64,000 bases of DNA, from NCBI RefSeq assembly GCF_036013935.1, contig NZ_CP107902.1, positions 6,543,001-6,607,000 on the forward strand, read 5' to 3'. This document shows positions 38,112 to 40,720 of this stretch, one piece after another (the first letter of the stretch is position 1; each line of letters opens with the position of its first letter). Origin of the DNA: Streptomyces sp. NBC_00461. Lineage in GTDB: Bacteria; Actinomycetota; Actinomycetes; Streptomycetales; Streptomycetaceae. The notes beneath the pieces were generated by a model. It worked only from the letters and a program-made list of their open reading frames with translations. It did not search any database and was not told the DNA's origin. Position numbers and translations under genes: made by a program.

Positions 38112-39518
38112 ATGTCGGTAGGCGAAGAGGTCCGTTCGGAGCAGGGCAAGCCGCAGCAGAGCCTCGGCACGGCAGCCGCACGGAACCTGGCCACCACGAC
38201 CAAGTCGGCACCCCAGATGCAGGAGATCAGCTCGCGCTGGCTGCTGCGCACGCTGCCGTGGGTGAATGTCCAGGGTGGTACGTACCGGGTCAACCGGCGA
38301 CTGAGCTACGCCGTGGGGGACGGCCGCATCACGTTCGTGAAGACCGGCGACCGAGTCGAGGTCATCCCCGCGGAGCTGGGCGAACTGCCCGCGCTGCGTG
38401 ACTACGAGGACGACGAGGTGCTCTCGGAGCTCGCCCAGCGCTGCCGGCAGCAGGAGTTCGCGCCGGGTTCCGTGATCGCCTCGTTCGGCAGCCAGGCCGA
38501 CGAGGTCTATCTGCTGGCGCACGGCAGGGTGGAGAAGGTCGGCACGGGCCCGTACGGCGACGACGCGGTCCTCGGTGTGCTCGCCGACGGCGCCTACCTG
38601 GGTGACGCGGCGCTGCTCGACCCGGAAGCGATCTGGGAGTACACGGCCCGCGCGGCCACCGCGTGCACGGTGCTGATCCTCTCCCGCCAGGACGTCGACC
38701 AGGTCGCGGAGCGCGCCGACTCCCTGCGGGCGCACCTGCGGCAACTGCGGGCGATTCCCGAGCAGCGCACCAACAAGTACGGAGAGAAGGAGGTCGACCT
38801 CGCCGCAGGCCACAGCGGCGAGCCCGACATCCCGCACACCTTCGTGGACTACGAGGCCAAGCCCCGCGAGTACGAACTGAGCATCGCCCAGACCGTGCTG
38901 CGCATCCACTCGCGCGTGGCCGACCTCTACAACCAGCCGATGAACCAGACCGAGCAGCAACTGAGGCTGACGGTCGAGGCGTTGAAGGAGCGCCAGGAGC
39001 ACGAGCTGGTCAACAACCGCGAGTTCGGCCTGCTGAACAACTGCGAGTACGACCAGCGGCTCCAGCCGCACGACGGTGTGCCCAGCCCCGACGACCTGGA
39101 CGAGCTGCTCAGCCGGCGGCGCGGCACCAAGCTGCTGCTCGCCCACCCGCGCGCGATCTCCGCGATCGGCCGCGAGCTCAACAAGCGGGGGCTCGTCCCC
39201 GAGACGATCGAGGTGGGCGGCAACCGCATCCCGACCTGGCGCGGTGTGCCCATCTACCCGTGCAACAAGATCCCGGTCACCGAGGCCCGCACGACCTCGA
39301 TCATCGCGATGCGTACCGGCGAGGCCGAGCAGGGCGTCATCGGACTGCAGCAGGCCGGCATCCCGGACGAGATCGAGCCGAGCCTGTCCGTGCGGTTCAT
39401 GGGCATCAACGAACAGGCGATCATCAAGTACCTGGTGACGGCCTACTACTCGGCCGCGGTCCTCGTCCCGGATGCGCTCGGTGTCCTGGAGAACGTCGAG
39501 ATCGGCCGGTGGAGGTGA
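38112..39518 (+). CDS. eshA: Family 2B encapsulin shell protein with cNMP-binding domain (EshA-like)
   Basis: A 468-residue protein of the EshA family, now placed among Family 2B encapsulins: HK97-fold shell proteins that build protein nanocompartments. Residues 1-90 and 240-468 carry the shell fold; the stretch [20 protein letters not shown] (254-273) with [19 protein letters not shown] and the C-terminal [21 protein letters not shown] are typical. Residues about 92-205 are an inserted cyclic-nucleotide-binding domain with a phosphate cassette of LGDAALLD followed by R180-AAT; the usual GE is GD here. EshA is needed for sporogenic hypha growth in S. griseus. ATG 38112 follows GGGAGGG by about 10 nt. 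The prenyl synthase downstream is the probable cargo. Confidence 0.9.
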
Positions 39519-39631
39519 CGTTTCTGCGCCTGGGGGTCGTGTCCCCGCCCACCGCGGCGGGTACATCCCGGTCGTATGTGCCCAGCCGCAGCGGAAGCGC
39601 CGCCGTCCGCGGACTGACCGAGGGAGATCCC

Positions 39632-40720
39632 ATGGCCGAGTTCATGACGGAGGCGAAACAGCGCACCCCGGACGGGCAGCCGCTCGACGGGCACGAGGCG
39701 GCGGTGATCCTGGAGCGCACCCGGGCGTCCGTCGACCCCCAACTGCGCGCCGCCATCGACTCGTTGCCCGGCTCCATGCGCCGGATCGCGCTCTACCACT
39801 TCGGCTGGGAGCACGCGGACGGCACCCCGGCGGCGGGTAACGCGGGCAAGGCGATCCGTCCCGCGCTCGTTCTCACCGCGGCCGCCGCGCTCGGCGGTGC
39901 GAGGGCACGGGAGGCAGCCGTCCGGGCGGCCGCGGCGGTGGAGCTGGTGCACAACTTCACGCTGCTGCACGACGACGTGATGGACCGGGACACCACCCGC
40001 AGGCACCGGCCCACCGCATGGACCGTGTTCGGTGACGCGGACGCGATCCTTGCCGGGGACGCCATGCAGGCGCTGGCCCTCGGGCTGCTCGCCGAGGATC
40101 CGCACCCGGCGTCCGGGCCGGCCGCCGCCCGGCTCGCGGCCTGTGTCGTCGAGCTGTGCGCGGGCCAGCACGCGGACACGGCGATGGAGCGGCGCGGCCC
40201 CGGCGAGGTCACCCTCGACGAGGTGCTGACCATGGCCGAGGCCAAGACGGGCGCGCTGCTCGGCTGCGCCTGCGCTCTGGGCGCGCTGTATGCGGACGCG
40301 TCCGCCGAGGACGTCGAGGCGCTGGACGCGTTCGGCCGCGAGGCCGGGCTGGCCTTCCAGCTCATCGACGACGTCATCGGCATATGGGGCGATCCGCTGC
40401 GCACCGGGAAACCGGTCGGCGCGGATCTGGCGGCCCGCAAGAAGTCCCTGCCGGTGGTCGCCGCGCTCACCTCGGGCACCCCGGCGGCAGCGGAACTGGC
40501 CGCGCTGTACGAAGCGCCGTACGACAAGGAGGGAGGTGAGGGCGACATCGCGCGGACGGCTCTCGCCGTCGAGCAGGCCGGTGGGCGCGACTGGGCGCAG
40601 GTCCAGGCCGCTGACCGCATGGCCCGCGCGATGCACGAGCTGTCCCGGGCGGTCGCCGACCCGGCGGAGGCGGGCGGCCTGCTCGCCCTGCTGGAGTTCG
40701 TGACACGACGCAGCAGCTGA
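39632..40720 (+). CDS. Polyprenyl diphosphate synthase, probable encapsulin cargo
   Basis: A 362-residue trans-prenyltransferase that condenses allylic and isopentenyl diphosphates. Motifs are GKAIRP (72-77), first aspartate motif DDVMD (114-118), RR (123-124) and second motif DDVIG followed by D254 (246-254). Phe at position -5 from the first Asp (F109) and no two-residue insertion resemble type I GGPP synthases, so C20 is the likeliest product. ATG 39632 follows GAGGGAG by 5 nt. GTG 39515, which overlaps the shell gene's stop, would add 39 Ser/Pro/Gly-rich residues. Family 2B shells are known beside polyprenyl transferases, so encapsulation is a strong inference from context. Confidence 0.88.
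   Translation: MAEFMTEAKQRTPDGQPLDGHEAAVILERTRASVDPQLRAAIDSLPGSMRRIALYHFGWEHADGTPAAGNAGKAIRPALVLTAAAALGGARAREAAVRAAAAVELVHNFTLLHDDVMDRDTTRRHRPTAWTVFGDADAILAGDAMQALALGLLAEDPHPASGPAAARLAACVVELCAGQHADTAMERRGPGEVTLDEVLTMAEAKTGALLGCACALGALYADASAEDVEALDAFGREAGLAFQLIDDVIGIWGDPLRTGKPVGADLAARKKSLPVVAALTSGTPAAAELAALYEAPYDKEGGEGDIARTALAVEQAGGRDWAQVQAADRMARAMHELSRAVADPAEAGGLLALLEFVTRRSS

Follow-up and report, generated by a model that had tools for sequence, protein, structure and literature searches.

A Family 2B encapsulin, most likely of the EshB type, and an adjacent prenyl diphosphate synthase as its probable cargo in Streptomyces sp. NBC_00461

Within the window, the 64,000-nucleotide stretch of the Streptomyces sp. 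NBC_00461 genome that was analysed, we find a two-gene operon in which a gene for a Family 2B encapsulin shell protein, most likely of the EshB type, is followed by a gene for an apparently active C15–C20 prenyl diphosphate synthase. On balance, we favour the reading that the shell takes up this synthase, by a loading route that does not use the tag of terpene cyclase cargos. The shell most likely encloses the enzyme, whose prenyl diphosphate product would form at the shell or in its interior and exit via pores partly covered by domains inserted in the shell protein.

The pairing is of an already known and widespread kind, and the window is in no respect a new one, because the accessible part of a 2021 survey (PMC8346489) lists 900 operons of a Family 2B shell with a polyprenyl transferase, and because the NCBIfam models NF041163 and NF041169 already name the pair; the novelty that the first-pass annotation had seen in the pairing is thus not supported. 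Like the window, the survey's operons, as described in that part, combine a shell carrying an inserted domain with an adjacent synthase and lack a universal synthase tag; unlike the window's synthase, in which residues 1–18 are predicted to be disordered, survey synthases have 50–100 disordered N-terminal residues. A literature search at title and abstract level, in one literature collection, turned up no experiments on a synthase as cargo of a 2B shell. What is added here is the EshB assignment, the linkage of synthase and shell in 75 of 76 cases, the separability of the pair, the contrast in tags between cyclases and synthases, and a Trp at shell position 175.

Shell and synthase genes and their genomic setting

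The operon comprises the following features, given in window positions:

38112..39518, + strand: Family 2B encapsulin shell protein, most likely EshB type, 468 aa (NF041163, 767 bits, cut-off 400; PDB 9bhu, E 1.6e-196)
38163..38231, + strand: conserved N-arm of the shell, residues 18–40, its most conserved block (mean identity to the window: 0.97 over 78 related loci, 0.95 over 20 sampled linked shells)
38385..38750, + strand: inserted cNMP-binding-like domain, residues 92–213, the least conserved block (PF00027, residues 114–201)
38634..38636, + strand: codon of Trp175, which we align with the phosphate-binding Arg82 of CRP (W in 79/79, 20/20 and 10/10 aligned shells)
38862..39515, + strand: HK97 P- and A-domain part, residues 251–468 (PF19307, residues 216–466)
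39620..39626, + strand: ribosome-binding-site-like gagggag ahead of the synthase start (from the sequence)
39632..40720, + strand: trans-prenyl diphosphate synthase, 362 aa, probable cargo (NF041169, 482.9 bits, cut-off 450)
39632..39685, + strand: N-terminal segment of the synthase, residues 1–18, predicted to be disordered (pLDDT <50), with no GPxGLGT tag
39971..39985, + strand: first Asp-rich motif DDVMD (114–118), with Phe109 five residues earlier (D114, D115, D118 and F109 in 101/101 linked-set synthases)
40367..40393, + strand: second Asp-rich motif DDVIGIWGD (246–254) (D246, D247, G250, W252 and D254 in 101/101)

The open reading frame, the profile matches and the alignments to solved shells agree with the earlier reading of a 468-residue Family 2B shell protein at this place. 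The NCBIfam model encap_f2b (NF041163) spans residues 17–466 from its first to its last position (E 6.2e-231) and scores above its cut-off, the SrpI-like Pfam profile PF19307 covers residues 216–466 (E 1.2e-135), both marking an HK97-type encapsulin, and the solved 2B shells 9bhu (S. griseus), 9bix and 9bje (S. lydicus) align with residues 14 to 465–467 (E at most 2e-182). A Pfam match to the cNMP_binding profile PF00027 (residues 114–201, E 3.7e-16) lies inside this full-length 2B match, as a cNMP-binding-like domain in the E-loop, where a domain at about residues 92–205 had been noted before. The AlphaFold model of the shell is poor (mean pLDDT 52.6) and confident chiefly in the nucleotide-binding-like domain, and a Foldseek search with it, which ranked 9bhu first (TM 0.32, rmsd 24.4), started from a model too poor for fold comparison; the HK97 fold of the shell is for this reason based on homology to the solved shells. 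By the same homology, the protein would most likely self-assemble into a T=1 icosahedron.

The next gene had been taken to encode a trans-prenyl diphosphate synthase, an identification borne out by matches to PF00348 (E 7.3e-57) and to NF041169, the model named “family 2 encapsulin cargo, polyprenyl transferase”, whose cut-off is passed (E 5.3e-145); both searches used 39641–40717, which begins three codons past the likely start. That start, the ATG at 39632, lies 113 nt past the shell stop on the same strand, and the segment TGACCGAGGGAGAT at the ribosome-binding-site-like stretch recurs in close relatives (for example loci L023, L024 and L025). The frame remains open further upstream in the window, for example from a GTG at 39515 that overlaps the shell stop; an extension in this direction was rejected because relatives such as L052, L054 and L101 have a stop shortly upstream of the same start. 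Between the two genes we found neither a promoter-like site of the sigma-70 type nor a terminator, and a single opposite-strand terminator-like site lies inside the shell gene, near the expected number.

The structure model of the synthase (pLDDT 85.7) has 3nf2 as its nearest solved fold (TM 0.87 by query length) and a Pyrococcus GGPP synthase as the second-nearest. Both Asp-rich motifs of prenyl diphosphate synthases are present, as are the Lys and Arg positions whose role we take to be substrate binding: in the linked set of 101 synthases, made up of the window's, those of 80 related loci (one at a contig edge included) and those of 20 sampled loci, K73, R76, R123, R124 and K270 occur in every member and K205 and K260 in 100. 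Phe109, placed five residues ahead of this first Asp-rich motif, is consistent with C15–C20 products. The IdsB geranylgeranyl diphosphate synthase model (NF045549) scores 357 bits, under its cut-off of 475, and for this reason we give no product name. Judged from its sequence, the enzyme is apparently an active short-chain (C15–C20) prenyl diphosphate synthase. In one related locus (L086, upstream of 6001) the N-terminus of the synthase extends about 205 residues ahead of the core and contains a very long repetitive linker with HGPAPRPETPPL repeats.

The genome, a single contig of 10.37 Mb, encodes two proteins above the 2B cut-off, the window shell and a shell at C1:9726968-9728320 that is 58% identical to it over the matched part and adjoins a terpene cyclase and a GPP methyltransferase in a 2-MIB-type operon. 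EshA is placed in a 2-MIB operon (vnz_35035-35045, venezuelae) by PMC6428758, and S. coelicolor carries eshA (SCO7699) together with its paralogue eshB (SCO5249), two genes whose expression rises in development (PMC3878966), in the available text of each source. Since the genome's other shell fits EshA's 2-MIB operon and S. coelicolor has both genes, the window shell is most likely of the EshB type (SCO5249) and not EshA, which corresponds to the shell at C1:9726968-9728320; this orthology to SCO5249 and SCO5250 would follow from the pattern of shell paralogues and from gene order. The gene order that we take to support it is sigH near SCO5243; the neighbours in the window include a SigB/SigF/SigG-type sigma factor (TIGR02980), a Na/H exchanger, a PALP-type enzyme, an Amidase_2 protein and a GNAT protein. 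The EshA literature, which the first-pass annotation had applied directly to the window shell, consequently applies most likely to the other one: EshA is likewise a Family 2B-type protein linked to terpenoid genes, as the accessible part of PMC6428758 indicates, and differs in being the counterpart of that second shell. EshB, the likely counterpart of the window shell, is described as a putative cyclic nucleotide-binding protein and EshA paralogue, with a promoter that is up-regulated in development, in the part available of PMC3878966, and SCO5250 of S. coelicolor is named among MEP pathway genes in that of PMC7494193.

Linkage across Streptomyces and its exceptions

We took the 80 best out of 391 confirmed related loci, all found through the synthase; a shell gene lies directly upstream on the same strand in 79 of them, and the eightieth (L031) starts at a contig edge. 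So as not to choose by similarity, we used a second sample of 101 genomes drawn from the genus Streptomyces. A synthase above the NF041169 cut-off was found in 76 of these genomes, and 75 of the 76 synthases directly follow a 2B shell on the same strand, with 51–472 nt between the model ends, whereas among the matches listed none of 74 lower-scoring synthase relatives (44 + 30) has a shell within 5 kb upstream. The operon linkage is thus very tight, and together with the match to the cargo model NF041169 it upholds the earlier proposal that the synthase is the likely partner or cargo of the shell.

The shell matches listed split, by percent identity to the window shell, which is what defines our groups, into one group at no less than 73% and one at 67% or below. 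The upper group consists of 81 entries in 79 genomes and, among the matches listed, holds all genomes with an above-cut-off synthase except one, G076; beyond the 75 linked shells it has six more, in G082, G051, G006 and G010 and as second copies in G052 and G053.

In G076 (L103 507-1556), a synthase scoring 490 bits occupies the corresponding locus, and the 5.5 kb fetched contain no shell. The window's amidase, PALP-type enzyme and antiporter have matches there at 77, 70 and 75% identity, there is no shell match, and the divergent amidase gene lies 441 nt away from the synthase. One 2B shell lies elsewhere in this genome, is 65% identical to the window shell and stands beside a terpene cyclase with a GPSGLGT tag. 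The synthase can hence be retained in the absence of its shell, an argument against strict dependence. Conversely, the EshB-type shells of G006 (L144 899-2320) and G010 (L148 7004-8566) have neither synthase nor cyclase in the 9 kb fetched, and with G076 they show that the pair is separable and that neither partner strictly needs the other.

A terpene cyclase takes the place of the synthase beside the EshB-type shell of G051 and beside the second shell copies of G052 and G053. The G052 cyclase passes NF041167, that of G051 reaches 1176 bits with NF041168, just under the cut-off of 1200, and the G053 call is based on tblastn; the two second copies point to an apparent exchange of cargo within one shell group. 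At both of these loci (L146 in G052 and L147 in G053), the EshB-like shell and cyclase are accompanied by a GPP methyltransferase-like gene. At a further locus, L145 (2516-3489, in G082), the synthase match beside an EshB-type shell is made up of two overlapping pieces in different frames, through sequencing error or decay.

Cargo tags and the loading of the synthase

The tag GPxG[LMIVP]GT occurs in 19 of 20 terpene cyclases beside 2B shells, which are related loci and not independent draws (20 of the 27 loci searched are, together with G076, the first 21 listed of the lower identity group). The 20 are the loci with a match to the cyclase query among 27 searched; no match was obtained at that setting in L143, where the cyclase (of G051) is of another type, in L149, which overlaps L104 on the other side of the shell, or in L150, L151, L157, L159 and L165. 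The one exception is the window genome's own 2-MIB-type cyclase (L015 7893-8954, at C1 ~9.726 Mb), which has about 51 residues of open frame ahead of the cyclase core and no GPxGLGT tag. The synthases differ from the cyclases in this respect, since the tag was found in 0 of the 101 linked-set synthases and 0 of 19 others (18 unlinked relatives and G076). PMC8346489, in its accessible text, likewise describes most 2-MIBS-like cyclases as carrying a GPTGLGT motif and found none that is conserved among the synthases.

The synthase, having no such tag, would be loaded by its disordered N-terminus or by a folded surface. The N-terminus is longer in linked synthases, and variable: its median length is 47 and 44 residues in the two linked sets vs 25.5 in the 18 unlinked relatives, figures that are approximate because some loci, L040 and L091 among them, have unreliable automatic start calls. 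In counts over related sequences, none of the motifs tried was universal among the synthases. The commonest, a start of the form M[AGSTP]E[FLCIS], was found by a start-independent search in 52/80 close relatives, 8/20 sampled linked loci and 0/19 others (a narrower pattern with called starts gave 45/81, 4/20 and 0/18); a TE..K/Q-type motif occurred in 38/80, 7/20 and 1/19 of the same sets, and a PIG-type motif in 13/80, 3/20 and 0/19. At twelve alignment columns the linked synthases have a nearly fixed residue that other synthases almost never share; these columns may point to a docking surface, or simply to shared ancestry. We also considered whether the cyclase tag mimics the shell N-arm: within the window shell, the published consensus has its best score on the N-arm, with 43 of 2000 shuffles as good, and the idea was rejected on finding that only 5 of 20 cyclase N-termini match best there and that 59 to 279 of 300 shuffles equal them.

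Conserved adjacency could also reflect a joint regulatory unit instead of packaging, the two genes being co-regulated in development, with the synthase cytosolic and the shell empty or holding something else. The absence of the cyclase-type tag from the whole linked set, together with the lack of a universal tag that the available text of PMC8346489 also records, would fit such an arrangement, as would the G076 synthase without a local shell and the EshB-type shells that have a cyclase (G051, G052, G053) or, in the stretch fetched, neither enzyme (G006, G010). It accounts less well for linkage in 75 of 76 cases against 0 of 74 lower-scoring relatives among the matches listed, for the extra N-terminal residues on linked synthases, and for the fact that the cyclase cargos of related shells are likewise encoded by adjacent genes; we regard it as somewhat unlikely, and prefer uptake of the synthase by the shell.

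The inserted domain

Over the 78 related loci, mean identity to the window shell is 0.79 in the inserted domain vs 0.94 in the HK97 part. Residues 8–107 of the CRP chain 1g6n match shell residues 100–199, and through this range we take Trp175 to occupy the position of the phosphate-binding Arg82 of CRP, and Asp165 that of Glu72. The Arg of the phosphate-binding cassette is thus absent from the window shell, and Trp stands at position 175 in all 109 aligned shells (79/79 for the window and 78 related loci, 20/20 sampled and 10/10 others). The GD at residues 164–165, flagged earlier as a departure from the usual GE, is indeed present; it is not the telling change, because GD and GE both occur among orthologs, position 165 being D in 48 and E in 31 of 79 aligned shells (the window and 78 of the 80 related loci). 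The nearest solved structure, the S. griseus shell 9bhu, aligned over residues 14–467, also has Trp at the Arg position and differs from the window shell in having GE in the phosphate cassette. Similarly, the two-component S. lydicus shell (9bix/9bje), described in the accessible part of PMC12407261, shares the 2B fold, the displayed nucleotide-binding-like domains and, in our alignments, the Trp, and differs in having two shell genes per operon where the window has one.

In the same part of PMC12407261, the 2B domain is stated, with reference to a preprint, not to bind cyclic nucleotides, and the inserted domains are placed above the two-fold pores. Gating of the compartment, as suggested in the first-pass annotation, would have cAMP or cGMP bind the inserted domain and so alter access to the synthase or its activity. 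The domain does match PF00027 and resembles cNMP-binding domains in both sequence and model, but with Trp in place of Arg in every aligned shell, with the reported lack of binding in that excerpt of PMC12407261, and with conservation lower here than anywhere else in the shell, such gating is very unlikely. The inserted domain is more plausibly not a cyclic-nucleotide switch; its role may instead lie in binding some other ligand or in covering the two-fold pore. It is also highly improbable that the synthase is packed in either 2B shell, EshB or EshA, and feeds a terpene cyclase: both shells are encoded in the window genome, and G076, without an EshB-type shell, combines the synthase with a different, cyclase-linked 2B shell, but Phe109 and the IdsB-like profile suggest C15–C20 products whereas 2-MIB needs C10, and the synthases lack the cyclase tag.

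Going beyond uptake of the synthase by the shell, one may speculate that the EshB-type compartment is a stand-alone maker or store of prenyl diphosphate with a loading route of its own, in contrast to the tag-bearing compartments of the cyclases, and that its Trp-bearing inserted domain detects a ligand other than a nucleotide, a prenyl diphosphate for instance, which opens or closes the two-fold pores in development, an idea to which we attach little weight. The separations seen in G076, in G006 and G010, and in G051, G052 and G053, together with the missing cyclase tag, make the cargo question simply testable, and the presence of an above-cut-off synthase in 76 of the 101 genus genomes is why the role of a shell for a prenyl diphosphate synthase matters.
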